Assembly (NCBI RefSeq): GCF_024346455.1
Contig: NZ_JAGQCY010000007.1
Span: forward strand, 1 to 64,000
Length of the DNA: 64,000 bases
Direction of reading: 5' to 3'
From: Cyanobium sp. Aljojuca 7A6
GTDB taxonomy: Bacteria; Cyanobacteriota; Cyanobacteriia; PCC-6307; Cyanobiaceae
The notes beneath the pieces are model-generated. The model searched no databases. It was given only the letters and a program-made list of their open reading frames with translations, and had not been told where the DNA came from. The translations under genes were made by a program, and so were the position numbers. How positions within the stretch are numbered: the first letter of the stretch is position 1; each line of letters starts with the position of its first letter. Shown piece after piece: positions 118 to 44,471 of this stretch.

Positions 118-206
118 GTCTAACGCTTCCGATCACCTGCCCGCCAGGCACTCTGCGAATGAAGATATGCCATAGGCGGCGGGTCAGGTGCATCGGATTG
201 TTCGGC
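118..206 (-). other. attC recombination site C (end of cassette 3)
   Basis: Read on the minus strand the site opens with GCCGAAC (R'', 206-200) and closes with GTTAGAC (R', 124-118). The inner arms are complementary: CCGATGCACCTGACCCGCC near R'' pairs with GGCGGGCAGGTGATCGG near R', leaving two unpaired extrahelical bases on the R'' side. That asymmetry is a hallmark of attC sites, which recombine as folded single strands. R'' begins 4 bp after the hsdR stop codon. Crossover is expected between G124 and T123. Confidence 0.85.
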
Positions 207-210
207 CTCC

Positions 211-3305
<3,095 letters not shown>

Positions 3306-3309
<4 letters not shown>

Positions 3310-4043
3310 TCGGCCTCCTGCCCGTCATCACCGGGCTCAGCAGCGGTGGCGCCGATGCCGGCTCCACTGCCTTCGGAGAGGTACTCGTTCAGCGCGGCCT
3401 TGTACGCCTCTCGATCGCCGTGGAACAGCACCCGACTCGGCAACAGTTCAAGTTCACCTAGCCGTATCAATTCATTGTCACGGTCAAAAGCCTCATTGAA
3501 GTCGGTGTGGTCCTCGTAGTACACGCGCGCGCCGGGCGTCTGCATCAGCGCATCGCGGTGGATGCGGTAGAGAAACGACACGATGGTGTCCGCTGCCTGG
3601 GCCGCAAGCGTGGCCTGTCGAAGATCAAGCCGGGCGGAGAAGCCGTCGCGGCCATGGGAGGCCATGCCGTAACCGTTCCGGAGTTCACACAGTCCTTGGA
3701 TGGTCTGGAGCAGCCCGCGGATCGTCTTCTCTACCGATTCGCGCGCCTTGGTCGGGTCGGGATGGTTGCGCGGCAGCAGCGCCAGGCGGTTGGTGGTCTC
3801 CCTAAGGAGCTTCGGCGCGTCCCAGTTTGTGTCCGCCTGCTGACCGATGTCTGCGAGCACCGTCTTGCACACCGACTCGACCAGCGTCTTGGAGAGGTCG
3901 AAGGCGAAGTCGGGCACGCTTTCCAGCGCGTTCTCTATGGCGTGGATCTGCTGTTCGATTGTCTCGGAGATGGGGCCATCGAGCACCGCCGCGCGGGCGC
4001 CGACCATCTGAAAGCGCGCAGGGGCTGTGGAGGGTTCAACCAT
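3306..4043 (-). CDS. Abi-C domain (abortive-infection-type) protein inside the R-M operon
   Basis: The 245-residue product carries the conserved C-terminal block of abortive infection family proteins, with [13 protein letters not shown] at about residues 122-134 followed by a helical segment. Abi-C proteins are found in many defence operons, but their biochemical activity is not established. The chosen ATG (4043) is preceded by GGAGGTGCGCC, a good ribosome binding site; a GTG at 4070 would add nine residues. The start overlaps the end of hsdS by 8 bp and the stop overlaps the hsdR start by 4 bp, so the four genes should be made together. It may sense failure of restriction or trigger dormancy; this is inference. 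Confidence 0.8.
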
Positions 4044-5334
4044 GGCGCACCTCCACACGCAACTGGCCACTCAAGAGCTTAGGAAGCAAATAGTCGCGCA
4101 TTTCGGCAAGCCTGCGAGATTCAAGTTGCGCCATCGCGCGAATCTCGAACAAAGGCGCGATCACCTGATTGCTTCGTTCTAGAAACATAGGCGGCGGCAC
4201 CGCCACAAGCGCTTGGCTCAGATGGCCCCGCTTGATGTGGCCCATGGTTGTTGCCTTGCTCGCGGCGATGAGGCGAAATTCTGGCAGATGATGCTGGACC
4301 CACTCGAATACCAGCCATTGTGGGTACTCGTCCGAAGTTACCTTGAACAAGTGCTGATTCAATGCTCCAGGACCGCCAAACCAAAAAGCCGCTTCAAGCG
4401 TTCCGGACCAAGAGAACAGCAGGTCGCCGTCCCGTATCTTGTAAATCTCGCTGATGGAATCGTTGGAAGTGTCGGCTCCTTCCGTTGAACCCTTGCGAAG
4501 CTGGGCGATCTTGATGACCGGGAGATCGGTGCCGTCCTCGCGTGGAGGGTACTTCTGGAGTGCCAGTCCGTTGAGAAACTCTGCGACGCTATCGAGAGGC
4601 TTTATCTCCCACCCCAGCGGAACAGGGCCTATGGCGGAATCTACGAAGCGGGTTGGAAGGGCGTCGAAGACAGGCTGGGGCATTCCGGGAAAGGCAGAGC
4701 TGCCTTCGGCCTTGGCCTTGACCGGCTCGAAGTCCACGTACCACGCCCGGAAGATCGCCCGCCCCAGCCGCTCCAGCGCCCGCGCGGTCTGCCGGTTCTG
4801 TTCGATCTTGTCATCCAGCGCGCCAAGGACTCCGGCGATGGCGCGTTGTTCATCAATCGGAGGTAGCGTAGTTTCAAACTCGCAAATACGACCGGGGGAT
4901 GTGTGGCGCACCGACGATCCTGACGCGGTGGCCAGAATGTGGTGTCTATAGTCGTCCGCACGTAGCCGATAGAATAGAAAGCGCTTATCCGCCTCGGCAT
5001 CGTGTTTGATCTCGATGAGCCCTACTCGCTGATTGTGCAGGTAGCGTCTACCGACAGATTCGGGGATCAGAGCAGGATAGCCAAGAGTATCGCCAGCCTT
5101 GCTGAGATCGGTCATCGTCACAACCAGATCGCCAGCCTGAAGGACGTAGTCATCAGGCACCGGTCCCGCGTAATACTTCAATTTGGTGTCTTGGAAGCCA
5201 CCACCGATGGCAAAGTTGCCTGGTGTGACGAGTACGTCTGGGGTCGTCTCGTCAGTGAAATACTCACCCTTGAATGCGAAGCCATGCTTCACATGGATGT
5301 AACTGCCAAGCGTGGGGCGACAAGCATCATTCAT
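4036..5334 (-). CDS. hsdS: Type I restriction enzyme, S (specificity) subunit
   Basis: HsdS recognises the bipartite DNA target for both methylation and restriction. The 432-residue protein has the standard layout: target recognition domain 1 (about residues 1-165), a central conserved helical region beginning around PPIDEQRAIAGVLGALDDKI, target recognition domain 2, and a C-terminal conserved helix ending MRDYLLPKLLSGQL. The target sequence cannot be predicted from the protein. The start ATG at 5334 is chosen because it overlaps the hsdM stop by 8 bp (ATGAATGA). A longer reading frame upstream only runs back inside hsdM. Both domains look complete. Confidence 0.95.
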   Translation of the reverse strand: MNDACRPTLGSYIHVKHGFAFKGEYFTDETTPDVLVTPGNFAIGGGFQDTKLKYYAGPVPDDYVLQAGDLVVTMTDLSKAGDTLGYPALIPESVGRRYLHNQRVGLIEIKHDAEADKRFLFYRLRADDYRHHILATASGSSVRHTSPGRICEFETTLPPIDEQRAIAGVLGALDDKIEQNRQTARALERLGRAIFRAWYVDFEPVKAKAEGSSAFPGMPQPVFDALPTRFVDSAIGPVPLGWEIKPLDSVAEFLNGLALQKYPPREDGTDLPVIKIAQLRKGSTEGADTSNDSISEIYKIRDGDLLFSWSGTLEAAFWFGGPGALNQHLFKVTSDEYPQWLVFEWVQHHLPEFRLIAASKATTMGHIKRGHLSQALVAVPPPMFLERSNQVIAPLFEIRAMAQLESRRLAEMRDYLLPKLLSGQLRVEVRHG

Positions 5335-7009
5335 CTGCTTGGACCCTTGTGAGCTGCTCTCGAACCACCGCTGTAAACCGTTCGCTCTCCCCAAAGCACT
5401 CCTCCAACTCCGCCAGCAGGCGCGGGTACTTCTCCGCGAACGGCTCGCCATCGTCCTCCTGCTCCTCGGCGCCCACGTAGCGGCCGGGTGTGAGCACGAA
5501 GCCGCGCTTGTCTATGCCCGCGATCGTCTCGGCCTTGCAGAAGCCGGGGATGTCACGGTACTTCCACGCGCCGTGCTGGGCCTCGTTCCACCAGGCGGGC
5601 GCAGGCTCACCGCGCCACTGGCGGAAGGCGTAAACGATGCGGCCGAGGTCGGAATCGAAGTTTGGGTCGCCCATGCCGTCGGCCAGCATGCTCTCGCCGT
5701 CGTCGCCTCCGGTGAGGACGCGCAGCGTCCGGGTCTTCAGGGTGCCGAGCTTGTGGGCGTTGATGAAGAGGGTCTCGCCATTCCGCTCGCGTCCGCCGTG
5801 CTTGAGGTTCCTTCCACTCTTGTCGCGTGTAAGGAACCAGAGGCAGGCGGGGATGCCGGTGGTGAGGAAGAGCTGGGCCGGCAGCGCGACGATGCAATCC
5901 ACCAGGTCGGCCTTGACGATGCGTTCGCGGATCTCGCCCTCGCCGCCGGAGCCGGTGGAGAGCGAGCCGTTGGCCATGACGAAGCCTGCCACCCCTCCGC
6001 CGCGGCCATTGGGCGGCGCGAGGTGGTGGATAAAATGCTGGATCCAGGCGTAGTTGGCGTTGCCGACAGGCGGCGTGCCGTATCGCCAGCGCCCGTCGTC
6101 GCCTAATAGCTTGCCGGACCAGTCAGAGATGTTGAACGGCGGATTAGCGAGGATGTAGTCGGCCTTGAGGTCGGGGTGGAGGTTGCGCAGGAAGCTGTCG
6201 GCGGGCTGGCTGCCGAGATTGGCTTCAATGCCGCGGATGGCGAGGTTCATGTGTGCCAGCCGCCAGGTGGTGGGGTTCGACTCCTGGCCGAAGATCGAGA
6301 TGTCGGTCTTCTGACCGCCGTGCGCTTCCACGAAGCGTTCCGACTGCACGAACATGCCCGCCGAGCCGCAGCAGGGGTCGTAGACGCGACCTTCGTAGGG
6401 TTCGAGCATCTCGACCAGTAGCCGGACGATGCAGCGTGGCGTGAAGAACTCGCCACCGAGCTTGCCCTCGGCCTGGGCGAACTTACCGAGGAAGTATTCG
6501 TATACGCGGCCAAGGGTGTCGCGGGCCTTGGCGCGGTCGCCCTTGAAGCCGACGTCCGCGATCAGTTCGATCAGCCCCTTCATCTTCTCCGGAGCAATGC
6601 CGCGGCGGGCGTAGTCCCGCGGCAGCTTTCCCTTGAGGCCCGGGTTGTCTCGCTCTACTGCGAGGATGGCGTCGTCGATCAGCGTTGAGATGTCTGCGCG
6701 CGCGGCCTGGTTCTGAAGGTTCTGCCAGCGTGCCTCTGGGGGCACCCAGAAGACCCGTTCGGCGGTGTATTCGTCGCGGCTCTCCAGAAGGCTTTCTAGT
6801 TGCTGCCCTGTGATGCCATCAGCTTCCAACTCAGCTTGCAGCTCATCTCTGCGAGCTGCGAAAGAATCTGAAATGTACTTAAGAAATAGCAGACCTAAGA
6901 CAACATGCTTGTATTCGGCTGCGTCGATTTGACCTCGAAGAGTATCAGCAGCCTTCCAGAGGGCTTCTTGATTGGCGAGGTCTGTGGGTTTGGATTCAGA
7001 CGATGCCAT
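5327..7009 (-). CDS. hsdM: Type I restriction enzyme, M (adenine methyltransferase) subunit
   Basis: HsdM transfers methyl groups from S-adenosylmethionine to adenine N6 in the HsdS target, marking host DNA. The 560-residue protein has an N-terminal helical HsdM domain (about 1-140), the SAM-binding motif DPCCGSAG (about 211-218) and the catalytic NPPF (289-292) of N6-adenine methylases. ATG 7009 (MASSESKPTDLAN) is chosen because family homology begins there; a longer frame to 7141 is not conserved-looking. The 176-bp leader up to the cassette boundary has a possible -10 element (TAGAAT, 7037-7032) but only a weak -35, so the promoter is uncertain. Read-through from cassettes 1 and 2 is also possible. 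Confidence 0.96.
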   Translation of the reverse strand: MASSESKPTDLANQEALWKAADTLRGQIDAAEYKHVVLGLLFLKYISDSFAARRDELQAELEADGITGQQLESLLESRDEYTAERVFWVPPEARWQNLQNQAARADISTLIDDAILAVERDNPGLKGKLPRDYARRGIAPEKMKGLIELIADVGFKGDRAKARDTLGRVYEYFLGKFAQAEGKLGGEFFTPRCIVRLLVEMLEPYEGRVYDPCCGSAGMFVQSERFVEAHGGQKTDISIFGQESNPTTWRLAHMNLAIRGIEANLGSQPADSFLRNLHPDLKADYILANPPFNISDWSGKLLGDDGRWRYGTPPVGNANYAWIQHFIHHLAPPNGRGGGVAGFVMANGSLSTGSGGEGEIRERIVKADLVDCIVALPAQLFLTTGIPACLWFLTRDKSGRNLKHGGRERNGETLFINAHKLGTLKTRTLRVLTGGDDGESMLADGMGDPNFDSDLGRIVYAFRQWRGEPAPAWWNEAQHGAWKYRDIPGFCKAETIAGIDKRGFVLTPGRYVGAEEQEDDGEPFAEKYPRLLAELEECFGESERFTAVVREQLTRVQADE

Positions 7010-7179
7010 AGAGGGGCTTAGCTTGACAGGGATTCTAGGCCGAGCAAGCCGAGGCAGCCAGAGGCAACGGAGCAGCCTTCGATGCGCATGGGCGACTGAC
7101 CAGGAGTCTCGCCGGAGTGATACCGACAGAGCTACTAACATGAAAAACGCAATGGGTTCTTAAGGCTGTTGACGGGCAG

Positions 7180-7266
7180 GCCGAACGCTCAAGATCAGCG
7201 GCGGGCTTGAAGCTGGATCGCAAGTTGGTAACTCTTGCTCCCGTCCGCTGAATCTTGATGTTAGGC
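7180..7266 (-). other. attC recombination site B (end of cassette 2)
   Basis: On the minus strand the site begins GCCTAAC (R'', 7266-7260) and ends GTTCGGC (R', 7186-7180). The arm CAAGATTCAGCGGACGGG pairs with CCCGCCGCTGATCTTG, leaving two extrahelical bases on the R'' side. The TAA stop of the cassette 2 gene lies inside R''. Crossover is expected between G7186 and T7185. Confidence 0.87.
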
Positions 7267-7878
7267 GGTCCTCGCTGAAGTGGATCCGTTTGGGCCGGCT
7301 GCTCGTGCCACAGCTCCGGGGAGGTCCTCAAATGAAACCGCTGTTGGGCAAAGCCTCTGAAGCGTGCCTAGAGAGATCATCTTTTGGTTACTACACGATT
7401 CGTTAAGTACGGGCGTTCCGAGCACATAGAACTCCCACTGATTCACATTGAGCGGATCGATCGATTCCTGTGCGATGTGGGCATGAACTGCGAAGACGTA
7501 GACGTCAGCTGGCCTGGCTGCTTCTGTAGCCGAAATGTTCGTTGAGGCATCCCAGCTGAGCTTGGGAGCAATGTCGAAGCCAACGCTCGAGAGCCTCGCT
7601 TGGGCCCAGGACTGAATAAAGCCTGAAGCCTTGACCTCAACTTTAATGCCGGAATCGGTGACCAAATCGTAGGCATCCCACTCAGTTTGAACGCCGCTAT
7701 CGGCACCCAGCGCATGCGCTACCAGAAACTCAGCAAGGATGCCACGCTGCGAGTTGCTGATGAGATCCGAGCCTGACCATTGCCAGAACTGGTGCAGGGA
7801 GACACCTAGAGGTGCGCCATTCGCGTGCAGAGGCTCTAACCCACTCTTGCGCTCAGTTTCGATTCGTCCGAGGTTCAT
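7261..7878 (-). CDS. Cassette 2 protein with a PD-(D/E)XK nuclease-like motif
   Basis: No function is established for this 205-residue cassette protein. It contains a plausible PD-(D/E)XK endonuclease core: a helix with E50 (GILAEFLVAHAL), then D71 in WDAYDLVT, then the EVK triad E81-V-K83 inside GIKVEVKAS. This is the order and spacing expected of restriction-endonuclease-like folds. The start ATG at 7878 follows the cassette boundary by 25 bp and has GGGAG about 10 bp upstream. The stop lies inside attC B. Base composition is much poorer in GC than the core genome. The nuclease call is inference from motif spacing; it could be a non-catalytic member of the fold. Confidence 0.6.
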   Translation of the reverse strand: MNLGRIETERKSGLEPLHANGAPLGVSLHQFWQWSGSDLISNSQRGILAEFLVAHALGADSGVQTEWDAYDLVTDSGIKVEVKASGFIQSWAQARLSSVGFDIAPKLSWDASTNISATEAARPADVYVFAVHAHIAQESIDPLNVNQWEFYVLGTPVLNESCSNQKMISLGTLQRLCPTAVSFEDLPGAVARAAGPNGSTSARTA

Positions 7879-7897
7879 CTTGAGACTACTCCCATCT

Positions 7898-7987
7898 GCC
7901 TAACGCTCGCCATCACCAGGCCGCAGTGATACTGGACTATAGATAGTAACCATCCGGCGGCGGCTCTGGTGCATGGCGGTGTTAGGC
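7898..7987 (-). other. attC recombination site A (end of cassette 1)
   Basis: On the minus strand the site opens GCCTAAC (R'', 7987-7981) and closes GTTAGGC (R', 7904-7898), a perfect 7-bp inverted pair. Next to these, CGCCATGCACCAG pairs with CTGGTGATGGCG with one extrahelical G, the strand-selection feature of attC sites. Total length is 90 bp. The TAA stop of the cassette 1 gene is inside R''. Crossover is expected between G7904 and T7903. Confidence 0.9.
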
Positions 7988-8698
7988 GATTGCGCTCTTG
8001 GTGCACCTAACTGATGATATCAAATTGCCAATCTCATTGCCGAAAAGTGCAATGTAGCTGTCGCTTAGGCCTCGCGAACTGCTGGGGTGCGGCAGGGACA
8101 CTATGCTGCACCTCTGAAAGCTTTGGAAGCCAATCCTGAATCTGCGGCCAGAAAACTCCTTCTGTACTTTTCGTAGCGGATTGGTCTCCGCGCCTACAAT
8201 CGCGGAAAATCGAGCCAAGATCGACGACTTCTGAAGAACGTCAATCATTACAGACCCCATGAAGAGGATTACGGCTGGATCCAGCTCCGACACGAGGAAT
8301 AGGAAGTTATCAACCTGCGCAGGATCAGAAAGCTTGGAGTTAAAGCTCCCCTCAATGTGGTGTCCATTGGTATTACACCAGTTGGTCTGCACAATGCATT
8401 TTTCAAAGGGGCCGCCCAGGCCCTCACGATCTAGCGGATGCCCCCATAGCTCGAACCACCGGTGTATGCGATTGTCATAGCGCCATGCCAATGCGCGACT
8501 TCCATGTGCCGGTGTTTTATTTGAGAAGGTGGTCTCTGCATCTGGATCAAAAAATGGCGCAGGGTTCCCTTCTGCAAAAAGACGCTGATCATCTAAGCTG
8601 AACCCCCACTCGTAGCCACAGATTAGAATCCCGCGCTTGTCGTTAAGCCCTAGAAAGAGACTGTTTGCGAGGTTTAGTTCTTTGGTCACCGTAGCCAT
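7982..8698 (-). CDS. Cassette 1 protein, possible uracil-DNA-glycosylase-like fold
   Basis: This 238-residue protein is not firmly recognised. Three features recall the uracil-DNA glycosylase superfamily fold: an N-terminal strand-loop GILICGYEWGFS where family members have a G-rich active-site loop, a central hydrophobic strand AVILFMGSVMIDVL, and a late SLPHPSSSRGLSD segment resembling the HPS motif. This is a fold-level suggestion only. It is the first cassette after attI, so it should be the best expressed if transcription enters from the intI side. The ATG (8698) lies 17 bp from the cassette boundary with AGGAG directly in front. The TAA lies inside attC A. Confidence 0.55.
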   Translation of the reverse strand: MATVTKELNLANSLFLGLNDKRGILICGYEWGFSLDDQRLFAEGNPAPFFDPDAETTFSNKTPAHGSRALAWRYDNRIHRWFELWGHPLDREGLGGPFEKCIVQTNWCNTNGHHIEGSFNSKLSDPAQVDNFLFLVSELDPAVILFMGSVMIDVLQKSSILARFSAIVGAETNPLRKVQKEFSGRRFRIGFQSFQRCSIVSLPHPSSSRGLSDSYIALFGNEIGNLISSVRCTKSAIA

Positions 8699-8709
8699 CT
8701 CCTGATTCG

Positions 8710-8780
8710 CCTAACTCTTTATTGGGCGGTTCCGTGAACCACAGAACTTCCTGCGCCCCTTTCCGTGAACCACAGCTGAC
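8710..8780 (-). other. Candidate attI primary recombination site
   Basis: The first cassette begins at a core site GTTAGGC (minus, 8716-8710) within AAAGAGTTAGGC. Upstream of the core lie two identical 15-bp direct repeats, TTCCGTGAACCACAG on the plus strand at 8731-8745 and 8761-8775, exactly 30 bp apart. An inverted partial copy, GTGGTTCACGG, is at 8851-8861. Integron attI sites characteristically carry direct repeats that act as additional integrase-binding sites next to the core. Everything between the intI stop (8887) and the core is non-coding. Confidence 0.65.
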
Positions 8781-8886
8781 GCCAGCGAAACATCGGACGA
8801 AAATCCTTTCCTGCACAGCGATCTTAATTGGATGGCCAAGTCTTTTGGCAGTGGTTCACGGGTCCGATAACCACATGTAGCCATGA

Positions 8887-9858
8887 CTACATCAAGTCTG
8901 CTGGACTGCAGACAGCCAGCGGCCCTCGGTTCAGCACATGGGTGTAGATCATGGTGGTGCTCACATCCTGATGGCCCAGCAGTTCCTGGATCGTGCGGAT
9001 GTCTTGCCCCCGTTCCAACAGGTGGGTCGCGAAGGAGTGGCGGAAGGTATGGCAGCTGGCCGCTTTCGTCAGCCCCGCCTCAGCCACAGCCAGCTTCACA
9101 GCCTTCTGCACCACGCTCGGATCGAGGTGGTGGCGGCCCTGGGTTCCTGAGGCCCGGTCTCGCCAGCGGTTTTGTTGGGGAAACACCCATTGCCAGGCCC
9201 ACTCCCGATCCGCCTTCGGGTATTTCCTCGCCAGGGCGTAGGGCATCACCACCCGGCCCCAGCCCGCCGCCAGATCACCCTGATGCAGCTGGCGCACCCT
9301 CCGCAGATGCTCCTGCAGCTCGGGCACCAGGCTCTGCGGCAGCAGCGTCAGCCGGTCCTTGCCGCCCTTGCCGTCGCGCACCGTGAGCTCCCGTCGCTGA
9401 ACATCGAGATCCTTCACGCGCAGGCGCAGCGCCTCCATCAACCGGAGGCCACTGCCGTAGAGCAGCCCCACCACCAGTGCCGCCTCTCCCTCCAGTTGTT
9501 GGCGCACCGCCCGCACCTCCGCTTCGCTGAGCACCACCGGCAGCCGGCGCCGTGTTCGCGCCCGCACCACCCCCTCCAGCTCCAGATCCCGCTCCAGCAG
9601 CTCCCGGTACAGAAACAGCAGCGCCGCCAGCGCCTGGTTCTGGGTGGAGGCGCTCACCTGCAGCTCCACCGCCAGGTGGCTCAGGAAGGCGTTCACCTCG
9701 GCGCTGCCCATCTCGCGCGGGTGGCGCCTGCCGTGAAACCGGAGGAATCGCCGCAGCCACTGCTCGTAGGTGTTCACGGTGCGGCGGGCGTAATGGCGCA
9801 TCTGCAGCTCTTCGCGATAGCGCTGGATCAGGCCTGGGGCGCGGCTGGCGTCGGCCAT
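8887..9858 (-). CDS. intI: Integron integrase (site-specific tyrosine recombinase)
   Basis: IntI inserts and excises gene cassettes by recombining attI and attC. The 323-residue protein has an N-terminal SAM-like core-binding domain (about 8-90) and a catalytic domain with the tyrosine-recombinase residues: R139 in [19 protein letters not shown]270 and R273 in CHTFRHSF, H296 in LLGHQDV and the nucleophile Y305 in TTMIYTHVL. The feature that separates IntI from XerC/D is the extra motif [19 protein letters not shown] (about 208-226), present and close to the class 1 sequence. ATG 9858 gives the usual family length; the frame extends further upstream without homology. Its 3' end faces the cassettes. 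All catalytic residues are intact. Confidence 0.96.
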
Positions 9859-9917
9859 GGGCTCGAGAGTTTGGGGGCCTCTTGAGAGTTCCCCAGCCGG
9901 GCCCACTCCCCCTAATC

Positions 9918-9939
9918 TGTACAGACCCCATGTACAGAC
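9918..9939. promoter_or_regulatory. Direct repeat TGTACAGAC x2, candidate operator between intI and the toxin-antitoxin pair
   Basis: Two copies of TGTACAGAC (9918-9926 and 9931-9939) are separated by 4 bp, and each contains the palindrome TGTACA. They lie 7 bp before the antitoxin start codon and 60 bp before the intI start, in the 88-bp divergent region. This is where an antitoxin autorepressor would bind, and it could also affect intI. It does not match the cyanobacterial LexA consensus. Confidence 0.45.
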
Positions 9940-9946
9940 GCCCTCC

Positions 9947-10201
9947 ATGGCGCGCGTCTCGGTGACCCACCTGCGCCAGAACCTGCCGGCCTGGCTCAAG
10001 CGCGTGCAGGCCGGGGAAGCGATTCAGGTCACCTCCCACGGGCGGGTGATTGCCCGCATCGAGCCGGAACACGACCCGGCCGAGGAGGCCCGCCGCTGGC
10101 TGGAAGGGCTGGGCGGCAGCGTCACCCTGGGGGATGTCGTCGCCCCGATCGCCGATGGCGACGCCGATCTCGAAGGCACCGGTGATGCTGACCATCTGTG
10201 A
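9947..10201 (+). CDS. Type II antitoxin, Phd/YefM family
   Basis: The 84-residue protein has the Phd/YefM DNA-binding N-terminus ([20 protein letters not shown] followed by [18 protein letters not shown]), then an acidic flexible C-terminal tail that would neutralise the toxin. ATG 9947 is chosen because homology begins at [10 protein letters not shown]; the frame remains open upstream without conserved sequence. The gene overlaps the toxin gene by 17 bp. Antitoxins of this family usually repress their own promoter, here probably through the TGTACAGAC repeats just upstream. It is divergent from intI and outside the cassette array. Confidence 0.87.
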
Positions 10202-10586
10202 CACCCATGTGCTGCTGTTCTGGGCCCATGAGCCGGCCCGGCTGTCCCGCCGTGCCGCGGCGGCTCTGGAGCAGGGGCGCGCCCAAGGGCAGCTGGCCAT
10301 CGCCGACATCAGCCTCTGGGAGCTGGCCCTGCTCCACGAGCGCGGACGCCTGAGCCTGCCGGACGACGTGCCCCCGGCCCTCTACCTGCGCCGCCTGCTC
10401 GAAGCCCTGCGGCTGGAGGTGCTGCCGATCACCGCCGAGATCGCCCTGCTCTCCCGGGGCCCCCAGTTCCGCCATGGCGACCCGGCCGATCGCCTCATCG
10501 CCGCCACGGCCCTGCAGGGCCGCCGGCCCCTGATCAGCGCCGACGAGAAGCTCCGCGCCATTCCGGAGCTGGAGACGATCTGGTGA
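10185..10586 (+). CDS. VapC-type PIN-domain toxin ribonuclease
   Basis: A 133-residue PIN-domain protein. The acidic metal-binding residues typical of VapC endoribonucleases are visible: the aspartate in [10 protein letters not shown] (about residue 5), the glutamate in ISLWELALL (about 47), and the aspartates in HGDPADRLIAATA near residue 100. Its start overlaps the antitoxin by 17 bp, as in most toxin-antitoxin operons. Partner Phd-type antitoxins are common for this PIN subgroup. The stop TGA overlaps the GTG of the next acetyltransferase gene (GTGA), so that gene may be co-transcribed. Next to an integron, such a pair could help to retain the region; that is inference. Confidence 0.9.
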   Translation: MLTICDTHVLLFWAHEPARLSRRAAAALEQGRAQGQLAIADISLWELALLHERGRLSLPDDVPPALYLRRLLEALRLEVLPITAEIALLSRGPQFRHGDPADRLIAATALQGRRPLISADEKLRAIPELETIW

Positions 10587-11467
10587 GCTCCCCCCTCGCC
10601 ATCCGTCCCCTGCAGAGCGCCGACATCCCCGCCATCACTGGCTGGGCCAGGCGGGAGGGCTTCGCGCCGGGGGTGGGCGATGTGGCCATCTACCGCCAGA
10701 CCGATCGCCAGGGCCTCTGGGTGGGCTGGCTCGGTGACGAGCCGGTGGGGTGCATCGCCGGTGTCCGCTACAACGCCGCCTACGGCTTCATCGGCCTGTT
10801 CCTGGTGGTGCCCGCCCAGCGGGGCCGGGGCTACGGGGTGCAGCTGTGGCGCCACGCCCTCCAGCACCTGGCCGACGTTCCCTGCGTCGGCCTGGAGGCC
10901 GCCCCCGACCGGATCGACGACTACGCCGGCTGGGGCTTCGCGCCCGCCTCCCCCACCACCCGCTGGCAGCGGCTCGCCGCCACAGACAACCCCGCCCCGC
11001 CGCCCGCCGCGCCGGAGCCCCCCTGGTGCCTGCTGGAGGGCGGCGCCATCCCAGCCGCCGCCGTGCAGCGTTTCGATGCCGAGCGGGAACCCTCGCCCCG
11101 CCCCCACTTCCTGCGCCAGTGGCTGCGGCATCCGGCCGGCACCGTGCTGGCCCTGGTGGATCGCAGCGGCGCCTGCCACGGCTTCGGCCGGGTGCGGCCC
11201 TGCCTGCTTCCCGACGGCGACGGCTGGCGCGTCGGGCCCCTGGTGGCGGACAGCCCTGCCGCCGCCCGGACCCTGCTCGAAGGCCTGCTGCAGCGCCATC
11301 CCGGCACGGTGCTGATCGATGCCCCCGGCGCCAATGCCGCCGCCGCCCCGCTGCTGGCGTCGCTGGGGTTCACCCCGGCCTCCCGCACGTTGCGCATGTA
11401 CCGGGGCGTACCGCCGGCCGTGTCGCTGGCGGACGTGTATGGGCTGGCCTGCCTGGAGCTGGGCTGA
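10583..11467 (+). CDS. GNAT-family N-acetyltransferase, two-domain
   Basis: The 294-residue protein has an N-terminal GNAT fold with the acetyl-CoA loop VPAQRGRGYGVQLW (about 76-89). A second, more divergent GNAT-like half (about 155-285) shows VLALVDRSGACHGFGRVRP and a C-terminal LGFTPASRTLRMYRG. This layout matches two-domain acetyltransferases of the YitH-like group, whose substrates are mostly unknown. It starts at GTG 10583, overlapping the toxin stop by 4 bp. No host pathway is indicated by neighbours. Confidence 0.85.
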   Translation: MSSPLAIRPLQSADIPAITGWARREGFAPGVGDVAIYRQTDRQGLWVGWLGDEPVGCIAGVRYNAAYGFIGLFLVVPAQRGRGYGVQLWRHALQHLADVPCVGLEAAPDRIDDYAGWGFAPASPTTRWQRLAATDNPAPPPAAPEPPWCLLEGGAIPAAAVQRFDAEREPSPRPHFLRQWLRHPAGTVLALVDRSGACHGFGRVRPCLLPDGDGWRVGPLVADSPAAARTLLEGLLQRHPGTVLIDAPGANAAAAPLLASLGFTPASRTLRMYRGVPPAVSLADVYGLACLELG

Positions 11468-11504
11468 CCCCCAGCCCAGCAATGGCTCCCCTACCTTCGA
11501 TCCC

Positions 11505-12257
11505 ATGCCATCGCGCTCGATCCTCCCGTTCCCCGGCCTGGTGCTGCTGTCGCTGGCCCTGGCGGCGCCGCTGCGTGCCGCGCCGATCCCCCTGATGGAG
11601 CCGGCGGGCATGGAGCTGCTGGTGGCCAGCAGAGAGCGGGCCGACTACGGCCCCCTGGCCGAACAGTTCCTCACCCAGGCCAACCTCGCCTACTGCGGTG
11701 TGGCCAGTGCCGCCATGGTGCTCAACAGCCTGGCCGTGCCCGCCCCCGCCGTGCCGGGCTACGGCCGTTACCGCTTCTGGACCCAGGAGAACGTCTTCGA
11801 GGTGCCGGCCGGCCGCACGGTGGTGAGCGCCGAGGTGGTGCGGCGCCAGGGCATGACCCTGGCCGAGCTGGCCGGCCTGCTGGAGGCCCACGGGGTGACA
11901 GCCGAAGCGATCCACGGCGACCAGCTCAGCCTCGAGCAGTTCCGCGCCCTGCTGCGCGCCAACCTCAGCCAGCCCGGCGACCGCCTGCTGGCCAACTACC
12001 TGCGCCCGGCCCTCGGCCAGGCCGGCGGCGGCCACATCGCGCCGCTGGCGGCCTTCCATGCCCCCTCCGACAGGGTGCTGATCCTCGATGTGGCCCGCTA
12101 CCGCTACCCCTCGGTGTGGGTCCCGGTCGCCGACCTGTGGAAGGCGATCCGCACCGTCGACTCCACCTCGGGCCGCAGCCGCGGACTGGTCACGATCCGG
12201 CAGGCGCCTGGGGCGACACCGCCTCCAGAAACCGTTCCGCCACCCGGTCCCAGCTGA
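11505..12257 (+). CDS. Exported phytochelatin-synthase-like cysteine peptidase
   Basis: The 250-residue protein has an N-terminal signal peptide (about 1-25, hydrophobic core GLVLLSLALAAPLRA). It also has the papain-like triad of bacterial phytochelatin synthase homologues: C64 in LAYCGVASAAMVLNSL, H177 in GGGHIAPLAAF and D195 in LILDVARYRYP. Cyanobacterial homologues lack the second domain of plant enzymes and mostly hydrolyse the glycine from glutathione rather than polymerise it. Export suggests a periplasmic role in thiol turnover or metal handling. ATG 11505 is chosen for the signal peptide. The 3' end overlaps the converging glycosyltransferase gene by 68 bp. Confidence 0.88.
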   Translation: MPSRSILPFPGLVLLSLALAAPLRAAPIPLMEPAGMELLVASRERADYGPLAEQFLTQANLAYCGVASAAMVLNSLAVPAPAVPGYGRYRFWTQENVFEVPAGRTVVSAEVVRRQGMTLAELAGLLEAHGVTAEAIHGDQLSLEQFRALLRANLSQPGDRLLANYLRPALGQAGGGHIAPLAAFHAPSDRVLILDVARYRYPSVWVPVADLWKAIRTVDSTSGRSRGLVTIRQAPGATPPPETVPPPGPS

Positions 12258-13296
12258 AGGGCGTTACGTGCTCGCGGCCGTAGGCGCGGCAGCGGGCCTG
12301 CAGTTCGGGATCGGTGAGCAACTTCAGCAGGGCCTCGGCCAGCGCCTGAGGATCCCGCGGCGGCACCAGCAGGCCGGCCCGGCCGTGGGGCACCACCTCC
12401 GGTATCGCCGTGGCCGTGGTGCTCACCACCGGCAGCCCACTGGCCATCGCCTCAAGAAACACGATCCCGAAGCCCTCCTGGATCGACGGCAGGCAGAACA
12501 CCGCGCTACGCCGGTACCACTCCCGCACGGCCCCGTCGTCGGCCAGGGCCCCCAACAGCTGCACCATCGCCCCCAGCCCCAGCCGCTGCACCAGCTCCCG
12601 CAGCGCCCCGTGCTCCGGCCCGTCGCCGATCACCACCAGCCGGGCACTCGGCAGCCGGGCGTGCACGCTCTGGAAGGCCGTGATCAGATCCCCCACCCGC
12701 TTGCGCGGGTACTGCCGCGCCACGCAAAGCACCGTGTGGGGCTCGCGGGCCCCATCCAGGGCGGCCAGGGCAGCAGCGTCCGCACCCGCCGGGTTCCACA
12801 GCCCGGTGTCGATGCCCTCCGGCACCAGCCGCAGCCGCCCCGCCGGCACCCCGTAGTGCTCTTCGATGCGTGCGCAGCAGTAGCGGCTGGTGGAGAACAC
12901 CAGCGGCGCCCGGCGGGCGTTGAGGCGCTCCAGCCGCGACAGACCCCAGAGCATCCGCCGCGGCCAGCCGCTCTCGCAGCGCGACTCCTCCGCCAGCACT
13001 CCCTTGATGCAGCACACGTAGGGCACCGGGCAGCGGTGCGCCACCCGAAAGCCGTCGATGTCGAAGCCCACCACCAGGTCGTAGCGGCCCGCGGCGGCCG
13101 CCAGGCGGCGGGGCAGGCTGAGGTTGAACCAGAGGCGGCGCAGCAGCAGATTTCCAGGCCAGGCCCCCTCGGGCACCAGGCGCTCCACCTGGTGGCCCCG
13201 GGCGACTAGAGCCCCGGCCAGGCCGCCGATGGCGGCCGCGGTGCCGCTGCCCTCGGCCACGTCCTGCAGCCAGGAATCGAGAAAGGCGATGCGCAT
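12190..13296 (-). CDS. Glycosyltransferase family 4 protein
   Basis: The 368-residue protein has the two Rossmann-like halves of GT-B glycosyltransferases. The C-terminal half carries VPEGIDTGLWNP, the nucleotide-sugar region HTVLCVARQYPRKRV and the retaining-enzyme E-x7-E block EGFGIVFLEAMASGLPVVS, all typical of family GT4. Likely roles are assembly of lipopolysaccharide or extracellular polysaccharide at the inner face of the membrane. The sugar cannot be deduced. Its start lies 20 bp downstream of the purF stop on the same strand, and it ends in overlap with the phytochelatin-synthase-like gene. Confidence 0.88.
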   Translation of the reverse strand: MRIAFLDSWLQDVAEGSGTAAAIGGLAGALVARGHQVERLVPEGAWPGNLLLRRLWFNLSLPRRLAAAAGRYDLVVGFDIDGFRVAHRCPVPYVCCIKGVLAEESRCESGWPRRMLWGLSRLERLNARRAPLVFSTSRYCCARIEEHYGVPAGRLRLVPEGIDTGLWNPAGADAAALAALDGAREPHTVLCVARQYPRKRVGDLITAFQSVHARLPSARLVVIGDGPEHGALRELVQRLGLGAMVQLLGALADDGAVREWYRRSAVFCLPSIQEGFGIVFLEAMASGLPVVSTTATAIPEVVPHGRAGLLVPPRDPQALAEALLKLLTDPELQARCRAYGREHVTPFSWDRVAERFLEAVSPQAPAGS

Positions 13297-13316
13297 GCTG
13301 GGGCCGGCCGCCGGGC

Positions 13317-14852
13317 CTACACCCGCGCCGCCAGGCCGGTGGGCTCGAGCATCAGCTTGCTGTTGCGCACCTCCTCATCCATCTCGATCGGGTAGTTGCC
13401 GTCGAAGCAGGCGGTGCAGAAATGGCTGGAGTTGGCCTGGGCCGCCTCCACCATGCCCTCCTTGCTCAGGTAGCTGAGTGAGTCGACGCCGAGGTGCCGC
13501 TCGATCTCCTCCAGCGTCAGCCGGGCGGCGATCAGGTGGTCCTGGGTGTCGGTGTCGATGCCGTAGAAGCAGGGGTGGGTGACAGGGGGCGAGCTGATCC
13601 GCATGTGCACCTCGGTGGCACCGGCATCCCGCAGGGCCGCCACCAGCTTGCGGCTGGTGGTGCCGCGCACGATCGAGTCGTCGATCACCACCACCCGCTT
13701 GCCGGAGAGCACATCCGGCAGGGGGTTGAGCTTCACCCGGATGCCCGCCTCCCGCATCGCCTGGGTGGGCTGGATGAAGGTGCGGCCCACGTAGCGGTTC
13801 TTGATCAGGCCATCGGCGAAGGGGATGCCGCTGGTGTGCGAATAGCCGATCGCCGCCGGGATGCCCGAATCGGGCACACCGATCACGATGTCGGCCGCCA
13901 CGGGGTTCTCCCGGGCCAGCACCTCGCCGATCCGCACCCGGTAGCTGTACAGCGATTCGCCGAAGAAGCGGCTGTCGGGACGGGCGAAGTAGATCATCTC
14001 GAAGACGCACAACTTGCTGGGCTCCTCGCACCAGCGCTGCCGCTCGGGGATCGGATCGGCCTGGCGGAAGTGGATCAGCTCACCGGGCTGGACGTCATCC
14101 ACAAAGCTGGCGCCGATGATGTCGAGGCCGCAGCTCTCGCTGCTGGCCACCCACTGGCCCTGCTCCGGTTCGCCCAGCATCCCGAACACCAGCGGCCTTA
14201 TGCCGTGGCCGTCCCGCAGGGCGAACAGGCCGTCAGGGGTGCCGATCACCAGGCTGAAGGCGCCGCGGCAGCGGGCCGCCGCCGCCCGGATCGCCGCATT
14301 CCAGCCCAGGCCGGAATCCACCGCCTCCTGCAGCGCGAAGGCGATCAGCTCCGAGTCGGTGGTGGAGGTGAACTCGCCGGCCATGTGGTCGAGCGAGACC
14401 CGCAGCTCCGCCGCATTCACCAGGTTGCCGTTGTGGGCCAGGGCCAGCGGCCCCAGGCGCGTCATCAGCACCACCGGCTGGGCGTTGCAGACCTTGCTGC
14501 TGCCGGTGGTGGAATAGCGGTTGTGGCCCACGGCCAGCTGGCCCGGCATCCGCTCCAGCAAGCCCTGGTCGAACACCTGGCTCACCAGGCCCATGTCCTT
14601 GTGCAGCCGCACCTTCACATCGTCGAAGACGGCGATGCCAGCCGACTCCTGGCCCCGGTGCTGCAGGGCGTACAGCCCGAAGTAGGTGAGATTGGCCACC
14701 GCCTGACCCGGAGCCAGCACGGCGAACACGCCGCAGGCCTCCTCCGGCTTGTCGGGGCGGTCGCTCTCGGTGATTCCCGTGGGCTGCGCATCGCGTTGAT
14801 CGGCGCAGGGCACGGGGTGTCTCACTCTGGGGGAAAGTTCATCTTCGCCCAT
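13317..14852 (-). CDS. purF: Amidophosphoribosyltransferase
   Basis: PurF catalyses the first step of purine synthesis, making 5-phosphoribosylamine from PRPP and glutamine. The 511-residue protein has the N-terminal nucleophile glutaminase domain with the catalytic cysteine in EEACGVFAV (C40, exposed after propeptide removal) and GLYALQHRGQESAGI. The C-terminal phosphoribosyltransferase domain has the PRPP loop VVVIDDSIVRGTTS. The start ATG overlaps the purL stop by one base (TAATG), so translation is coupled. The order purL-purF is the standard picocyanobacterial arrangement. Confidence 0.97.
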   Translation of the reverse strand: MGEDELSPRVRHPVPCADQRDAQPTGITESDRPDKPEEACGVFAVLAPGQAVANLTYFGLYALQHRGQESAGIAVFDDVKVRLHKDMGLVSQVFDQGLLERMPGQLAVGHNRYSTTGSSKVCNAQPVVLMTRLGPLALAHNGNLVNAAELRVSLDHMAGEFTSTTDSELIAFALQEAVDSGLGWNAAIRAAAARCRGAFSLVIGTPDGLFALRDGHGIRPLVFGMLGEPEQGQWVASSESCGLDIIGASFVDDVQPGELIHFRQADPIPERQRWCEEPSKLCVFEMIYFARPDSRFFGESLYSYRVRIGEVLARENPVAADIVIGVPDSGIPAAIGYSHTSGIPFADGLIKNRYVGRTFIQPTQAMREAGIRVKLNPLPDVLSGKRVVVIDDSIVRGTTSRKLVAALRDAGATEVHMRISSPPVTHPCFYGIDTDTQDHLIAARLTLEEIERHLGVDSLSYLSKEGMVEAAQANSSHFCTACFDGNYPIEMDEEVRNSKLMLEPTGLAARV

Positions 14853-43215: not shown

Positions 43216-44471
43216 TGGCGGAGATGGGGCAGCAGGTGGCGGGCGGTGCGCCGCCGACAGGAACGCCGCGCGCGGAGAGGGTGGTGCTCGCCTATTCCGG
43301 CGGGGTCGACACCAGCGTCTGCATTCCCTACCTGCTGCGGGAGTGGGGCGTGAAGGAGGTGATCACCTTCGCCGCCGACCTGGGTCAGGGAGATGAACTC
43401 GAGCCGATCCGGCTCAAGGCCCTGGCCGCCGGTGCCAGCCGCTCTCTGGTCGACGACCTGATCGATCCGTTCATCCGTGAGTTCGCCTTTCCCGCCATCC
43501 GGGCCAATGCTCTCTACGAGGGCCGTTATCCCCTTTCCACGGCCCTGGCTCGCCCCCTGATCGCCCGCCGCCTCGTGGAGGTGGCCCGGGAGGTGGGTGC
43601 CGATGCGGTGGCCCACGGCTGCACCGGCAAGGGCAACGATCAGGTGCGCTTCGATGTCGCCATCGGTGCCCTGGCCCCCGACCTCAAGGTGCTGGCGCCG
43701 GCGCGGGAATGGGGCATGAGCCGGGAAGAGACGATCGCCTACGGCGAGCGCTGTGACATTCCGGCGCCGGTGAGCAAGAAATCCCCCTATTCGATCGACC
43801 TCAACCTGCTGGGCCGCAGCGTCGAAGCCGGGCCCCTGGAGGATCCAATGGTGGAGCCGCCCGAAGAGGTCTTCGCCATGACCCGGTCCGTAGCGGACGC
43901 CCCGGCCGAGGGGCAGGTGGTGGAGATCGCCTTCGAGCAGGGCAATCCGGTGGCGATCGACGGCGAGCGCCTCGATCCGGTGGCCCTGATCCGGCGGGCC
44001 AACGCCCTGGCGGGGGCCCATGGCTTCGGCCGCCTCGACATGATCGAGAACCGGGTGGTGGGCATCAAGAGCCGGGAGATCTACGAAACCCCCGGCCTGT
44101 TGCTGCTGATCCGCGCCCACCAGGAGCTCGAAAGCCTCACCCTGGCTGCCGACGTGCTCCGCTACAAGCGCCAGATCGAGATGAGCTGGGCGGACCTGGT
44201 GTATCAGGGCCTCTGGTTCGGCCCCCTGAAGGACGCTCTTGACGGCTTTCTTGATCGCACCCAGGCCACGGTGAATGGCCTGGTACGGATCCGGCTGCAG
44301 AAGGGCAGCGCCACGGTGGTGGGGCGCTCCAGCGCCAGCGACAGCCTCTATGTGCCCGACATGGCCACCTACGGGGCCGAGGACCTGTTCGATCACCGCG
44401 CCGCCGAGGGCTTCATCTACGTCTGGGGGATGCCTACGCGGTTATGGGCCGCCCGTCGTCGTGGCGACTGA
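43215..44471 (+). CDS. argG: Argininosuccinate synthase
   Basis: ArgG joins citrulline and aspartate with ATP in arginine synthesis. The 418-residue protein has the P-loop-like motif [32 protein letters not shown] and [16 protein letters not shown] 43215 is chosen for AGGAG 8 bp upstream and its one-base overlap with the preceding stop. A longer frame from 43167 lacks these signals. The end overlaps a converging gene by 38 bp; the sequence after about residue 400 ([15 protein letters not shown]) is family-atypical but short. Confidence 0.97.

Follow-up and report, generated by a model that had tools for sequence, protein, structure and literature searches.

What does the ORF at positions 7261-7878 in the genome of Cyanobium sp. 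Aljojuca 7A6 encode, and in what genetic setting does it lie? We addressed both questions in a window of 64,000 nucleotides, the whole stretch of DNA analyzed here (positions 1 to 64,000 of the forward strand of contig NZ_JAGQCY010000007.1). A sequence-only reading of this DNA had seen in the product a PD-(D/E)XK-like core marked by E50, D71 and E81-x-K83, and had taken its location next to a type I restriction-modification (R-M) cassette as a sign of a second nuclease-based defence or mobile-element function.

The integron and its cassettes

An integron integrase gene, intI, was located at 8887-9999 on the minus strand (TIGR02249, 453.9 bits, cut-off 265), and the cassettes are placed beyond its 3' end in the same direction as intI. 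Recombination at attC sites cuts between the G and the TT of the GTTRRRY motif. We scanned for attC sites as paired cores with complementary arms, with eight shuffles of one strand as the null (maximum score 11.5). Three sites were found on the minus strand: the attC upstream of the ORF, which belongs to the preceding cassette (7898-7987, GCCTAAC...GTTAGGC, score 19.5, z -4.7 to -5.8), the attC of the cassette that carries the ORF (7180-7266, GCCTAAC...GTTCGGC, score 16.5, z -4.2 to -4.8) and that of the type I R-M cassette (118-206, GCCGAAC...GTTAGAC, score 14.5, z -4.0 to -4.4). The only other match in the window, at 43392-43475, scored 10.5, which is within noise. When the three sites were folded as single strands, 0 of 200 shuffles equalled them in each of six folds.

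Since attC sites lie on both sides of the ORF and IntI is encoded on the same strand, the ORF is a single-gene integron cassette of 718 bp (7186-7903, minus strand), measured between the cut points of the upstream attC and of its own attC. The TAA stop codon lies inside the GCCTAAC core of the attC site. The cassette holds one sizeable ORF and no methyltransferase gene, the nearest methylase being the HsdM of the next cassette. Around most same-genus relatives of the gene our scanner did not find an attC-like pair, so the cassette status holds for the window copy only. The DNA at 7170-7270 resembles seven further places in its own genome, two of them just 22-23 bases long, and was matched in seven of the eight genomes searched (own included); this recurrence fits the expectation for a lineage-specific attC family. 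In the same genome (G000), attC-like DNA was observed on six other contigs (C16, C17, C18, C23, C24 and C31), together with a second intI above the cut-off on C18 and a broken intI on C23, which points to several cassette arrays.

The region 8709-8870 of the minus strand, with GTTAGGC at 8709-8715 and three copies of GTGGTTCACGG, is presumed from its location to be the attI region. These copies, two direct and one inverted, lie between intI and the first cassette, and perhaps are the integrase-binding repeats of attI.

Concerning the neighbouring cassettes, the ORF was literally right to be placed beside the type I R-M operon as a cassette, both units being bounded by attC sites. The R-M cassette (124-7185, 7062 bp, minus strand) has an attC at each end and, based on Pfam and PADLOC matches, carries hsdM (5327-7141), hsdS (4036-5451), an Abi_C protein gene (3306-4070) and hsdR (211-3309). 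It thus contains a complete operon plus the Abi_C-domain gene and is much longer than usual cassettes. Both of its end cores, GTTCGGC at the head and GCCGAAC in its own attC, differ from GTTAGGC/GCCTAAC and yet are exact complements, as would be expected had the whole operon circulated as one cassette. The cassette preceding that of the nuclease gene (7904-8714, 811 bp, minus strand) carries an ORF of 238 aa (7982-8698) for which no family match was obtained; neither 99 genomes nor the viral contigs yielded a relative. A reading of this protein as a uracil-DNA glycosylase, based on motifs, was unsupported by the searches. At the contig end (1-117, minus strand), an ORF starts after the attC of the R-M cassette (MVEVRETTAYANWF...) and runs off the contig; presumably it resembles a RelE-family toxin.

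Conserved residues and predicted fold

The ORF (7261-7878, minus strand) starts with ATG and encodes 205 aa. In the model of the protein, E50 is placed in a predicted helix at 42-56, D71 immediately before a strand at 72-73, and E81-V82-K83 in a strand at 79-86. E50, D71, E81 and K83 thus occupy the positions claimed for them, and each is identical in 28/28 aligned homologues, whose median pairwise identity is 38%. The residues invariant among these 28 members are R45, E50, V53, D71, E81, V82, K83, Y127, V128, F129, W148 and F150; N42 is kept in 26. Judged from the alignments, the conservation of E50, D71, E81 and K83 is beyond chance.

A second set of 54 sequences, 45 of them distinct, comprised the window protein and 53 viral ORFs. 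It kept E81 and K83 in 54/54, Q89 in 53/54, E50 in 50/54 and D71 in 48/54, and the active-site motif was ExK in every sequence of both sets (28/28 and 54/54). E50 was missed in L133, L134, L141 and L144, ORFs whose N-terminal part is unaligned. D71 was a gap in one row and Arg in five near-identical prophage sequences (L124-L127 and L129), which lie directly before a serine integrase. This Arg-for-Asp lineage is perhaps inactive or repurposed. Loss of the residues in close homologues, which the sequence-only reading had named as evidence against such a core, was not seen among intact copies: apart from that one prophage lineage, which lacks D71, every intact homologue aligned has kept them.

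Our alignment (A6) left out broken, truncated or partial copies (L001/L011, L003, L009, L013-L016, L019, L020, L023-L025, L037, L046, L051, L075 and L076), the short same-genus paralogues L017, L018, L021 and L022, and the near-duplicates L044 and L049. L028 and L033 stand outside it, yet they carry the same residues. L017, L018, L021, L022 and L025 form a shorter paralogous group in the genus that lacks the long middle insert; among the first four, ExK is present in three and DxK in L017.

An AlphaFold model of the window protein, built with 18 sequences, reached a pLDDT of 90 and a pTM of 0.86. In a Foldseek search of the PDB, the first 32 rows were all restriction enzymes of the PD-(D/E)XK fold, with a best probability of 1.0; chains of NhoI and Eco15I ranked best (E 8e-4 to 1e-3, TM by query length 0.34-0.41) and PvuII came next. 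VIA-align gave a Z of 10.7 for NhoI (133 aligned residues, rmsd 7.3), 9.4 for I-Ssp6803I, 7.3 for PvuII, 6.6 for 1rzn, 6.5 for a Holliday junction enzyme and 5.8 for DpnI, values that are likenesses at the fold level only because the rmsd is high. Weak matches to viral models included proteins named PD(D/E)XK endonuclease and DNA endonuclease IV. The core proposed from sequence, whose absence from a predicted structure would have spoken against that reading, is supported by the first 32 PDB rows. On the model, DSSP assigned the core helix and later strands, but neither the first strand nor the crossover helix. Based on these structural matches, the window protein is predicted to have a restriction-endonuclease-like PD-(D/E)XK fold.

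Relatives, neighbours and decay

Searches with the window protein against Pfam, NCBIfam and PADLOC gave nothing better than E 0.038, and across the family Pfam, NCBIfam, PADLOC and PHROGs gave weak matches only, over the active-site stretch. The sole PADLOC matches were weak ones to mREase_II, by the window protein and 6/15 members (best 0.0087). DUF6998 (PF22522) gave a weak core match in 11/28 members (best E 0.0032), all under the gathering cut-off. Rfam gave no match, and the family profile found none among the PDB sequences, or one at E 1.4 (3pgb). Comparisons of this profile with single sequences were uninformative (probabilities of 5.7 for PvuII, 3.3 for DUF6998 and 5.6 for DenB). A candidate set of BisI-type relatives, sought through PDLC03212, yielded three weak matches in 194 genomes, and the two ORFs that were read resemble a different family.

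PHROG 1360, which represents phage T4 DenB (endonuclease IV), matched 8/15 members (best 1.1e-4). Among the profile comparisons a signal came only from an eight-row DenB alignment, which matched the family profile with a probability of 91.9; the match spans 54 columns and brings E, D and ExK into register. The controls for this match were column shuffles and reversal: 100 column shuffles reached at most 23.6 against 49.5 for the real alignment, and the reversed alignment 13.1. On this comparison of profiles, DenB looks like a distant relative of the family. The family is without a name in the libraries searched and was not shown in the literature, a search that covered open-licence PMC papers; the kind of enzyme, and integrons as defence stores, are both already known.

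Relatives were found at nine loci in genome contigs, in 10/149 relatives' genomes (own included), in 14 of 72,556 plasmid records and in three of 50,697 phage records, two of which are the same phage. The 28-row profile recovered 55 loci in viral contigs, a count of loci and not of independent events because near-duplicate contigs and same-contig pairs are included; the 13 loci L038 and L040-L051 are the same contigs as within these 55. Record names point to cyanobacteria, a Polyangia MAG, actinomycetes, Bacillus/Priestia and a Pseudoalteromonas. Judged from these sequence matches, the family is widespread in several phyla, plasmids and prophages.

In 28/55 viral loci, or 27 of the 51 that have at least 1 kb downstream, phmmer identified an integrase of the tyrosine or serine type that follows the gene on its own strand at a distance of no more than 0.6 kb. 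No upstream integrase was found at the 55 loci; L095 showed a weak serine-recombinase match on the opposite strand. At all five viral loci checked, an HTH repressor precedes the gene and an integrase follows it, as in phage FP_Brigit. Genes in this repressor-integrase slot are often superinfection genes expressed in the lysogen.

Of the 14 plasmid records, ten were opened, and their gene tables are incomplete. Within 6 kb of the gene, restriction- or helicase/nuclease-type genes were found in 4/10 (L027, L031, L032 and L033), an annotated DNA methyltransferase in 1/10 (L031) and a type I R-M gene in 0/10. One plasmid has a cytosine methyltransferase about 1.5 kb from the gene. The Polyangia homologue adjoins a DUF2357-PDDEXK_7 gene and an ATPase gene. 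In the relative G011, the homologous ORF (L053, 9772-10392) overlaps the end of hsdR (10380-13448), and a RhuM/Fic-domain gene lies on the opposite side. For unannotated loci we took the neighbour genes from a longest-ORF script. The tallies of defence neighbours are raw counts without a control set. Among the matches listed (25 of 109 PADLOC families), one of 71 neighbour proteins matched Wadjet JetC; from its size, this is probably the 1367-aa gene near L008. Neighbours scanned singly gave no PADLOC match for three of L007, two of L009 and one each of L005 and L003, and one neighbour each of L002, L004 and L006 matched ATPase-type models. As to the proposed second nuclease-based defence or mobile-element function, this context fits a predicted-nuclease defence gene on mobile DNA.

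All copies at least 66% identical over the matched part are incomplete. Those of G002 consist of one with an in-frame stop, one with two stops and a fragment; that of G013 is truncated, L003 misses an internal part, and in G006 and G018 only residues 1-66 were matched. In these broken copies E50 is replaced by Asp in L001/L011, and E81 by Ala in the truncated L013 and by a stop in L020. Open reading frames are kept in the 47% identical copy of G011 and in several short paralogues. The window copy is intact, and its comparison with the G002 copy gave a dN/dS of 0.29 over 204 codons.

A probable solitary nuclease and its possible function

We favour the reading that the cassette encodes a solitary PvuII/BisI-like PD-(D/E)XK endonuclease that depends on modified DNA and provides one-gene (type IV / IIM-like) phage defence, with a probability of about 0.5. 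That the window protein is a nuclease is very likely and a role in defence is likely, so that the gene probably helps the cell to cut incoming phage DNA; dependence on modification, suggested by the solitary habit of the gene and by BisI as the nearest solved fold, is somewhat less than an even bet. The protein would form a dimer through the helix preceding the core helix (residues 28-35), the conserved N42/R45 linker would contact the minor groove, and DNA would be cut in a Mg2+-dependent manner with E50, D71 and E81-x-K83 as the expected metal-binding/catalytic residues. It is less certain that cleavage would be limited to DNA carrying a base modification absent from the host. The outcome would be one-gene restriction, of the type IV / IIM-like kind, against phage DNA. 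Cutting only modified DNA would explain why integrons, plasmids and prophages carry the nuclease gene by itself, with no methyltransferase in its own cassette.

In favour of this reading, E50, D71, E81 and K83 are kept in 28/28 homologues, the model reaches a pLDDT of 90, the best solved matches, NhoI and Eco15I, are m5C-dependent, NhoI has the same N42/E50 spacing, and the sole PADLOC matches are the weak ones to mREase_II. The cassette has no methyltransferase gene, and 9/10 plasmid loci opened have no annotated DNA methyltransferase within 6 kb, in gene tables that are incomplete. The relatives beside a type I hsdR or a DUF2357-PDDEXK_7 gene, those directly before an integrase (28/55 viral loci) and after a repressor (the five loci checked), and the dN/dS of 0.29 also speak for it. 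Against it stand the ExK motif in place of QxK, the Arg at D71 in one prophage lineage, the broken closest copies, the HsdM of the next cassette, the nearby cytosine methyltransferase of one plasmid and the preference of DenB for unmodified cytosine. Caution on modification-dependence is called for because DenB prefers the opposite and the motif is ExK.

According to PMC11347163, BisI enzymes recognise m5C although they have no dedicated sensor domain, and their motif is QxK, and NhoI has its catalytic-helix Glu at position 50 and its minor-groove Asn at 42, the same spacing as N42/E50 here. The window protein shares with the BisI family (NhoI and Eco15I, which are m5C-dependent and cut GCNGC) the best solved fold match, the habit of a small solitary enzyme and the Glu on the core helix. 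However, its active site is ExK, no sequence match was found, and at 205 aa it is longer than most BisI enzymes tabulated in PMC4926085, which have 160-190 aa. Because the motif is ExK and not PD-QxK, we do not file it as a BisI member. With PvuII it shares the fold (Z 7.3) and the D-x9-ExK spacing, but PvuII-type systems carry the cognate methyltransferase in the same unit and the window cassette has none. As for DenB, only the 54 core columns can be aligned, with AE, D and EVK in register. PMC12405507 assigns a PD-(D/E)XK site to DenB, and PMC6071114 describes it as a lytic phage's host-DNA nuclease, specific for single strands containing cytosine and preferring unmodified cytosine.

The DenB match also opens the question whether the protein is a strand- or structure-specific nuclease (DenB-, Holliday-junction-resolvase- or RecU-like) that degrades foreign DNA or takes part in recombination, and does not act on modified sites. 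The profile probability of 91.9 over 54 columns, above 100/100 column shuffles, the PHROG 1360 matches in 8/15 members (best 1.1e-4) and the fold matches to the Holliday junction enzyme (Z 6.5) and 1rzn (Z 6.6) speak for it; yet the DenB match is limited to the core and the whole model fits BisI and PvuII better (Z 10.7 and 7.3 versus 6.5), which leaves this explanation rather unlikely. It is quite unlikely that the protein is an ordinary sequence-specific type II enzyme with its protecting methylase elsewhere in the genome, as its PvuII-like fold and the D-x9-ExK spacing might suggest: the cassette has no methylase, 9/10 plasmid loci have none annotated within 6 kb, and a type II enzyme that arrives by itself would be lethal to a new host.

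A role as a nuclease that assists HsdR in type I R-M systems would agree with the adjacent R-M cassette in the window and with the ORF overlapping the end of hsdR in G011, but it is very unlikely, given that the nuclease gene and the R-M operon are separate cassettes in the window, that 0/10 plasmid loci opened list type I R-M genes within 6 kb and that prophage copies precede integrases. We give as little credit to a mobile-element enzyme, be it a homing-type endonuclease that stands alone or a protein that assists integration or excision. The homing endonuclease I-Ssp6803I is a fold match (Z 9.4), and both tyrosine and serine integrases adjoin the gene in prophages; however, these integrases are of unrelated types, most plasmid loci opened have no adjoining recombinase gene and the window gene is an ordinary attC cassette. 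That the cassette is decaying and without current function is hardly probable at all: stops, truncations or a deletion affect the closest copies, whereas the window copy is full length, has all conserved residues and shows the dN/dS of 0.29 over 204 codons.

The solitary endonuclease reading could be extended to a cross-phylum family of one-gene antiphage nucleases, carried in integrons, plasmids and prophage repressor-integrase modules, with a catalytic core common with T4 DenB. Because this core is shared, the nuclease that a phage turns on host DNA and the one that hosts and prophages turn on phage DNA would have branched from a single family and would prefer opposite states of base modification. 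We consider this extension as a whole doubtful. According to PMC12409362, chromosomal integrons of Vibrio stock defence genes in single-gene cassettes, which the window cassette with its probable defence function would resemble; here, unlike in Vibrio, the host is a cyanobacterium and a whole type I R-M operon forms one cassette. If our main reading is true, it would add a one-gene restriction family without a name in the curated libraries searched, and would provide a cyanobacterial example of an integron storing defence genes, including a type I R-M operon as a 7-kb cassette. The family would also offer a compact test of how solitary nucleases spare the DNA of their own host.
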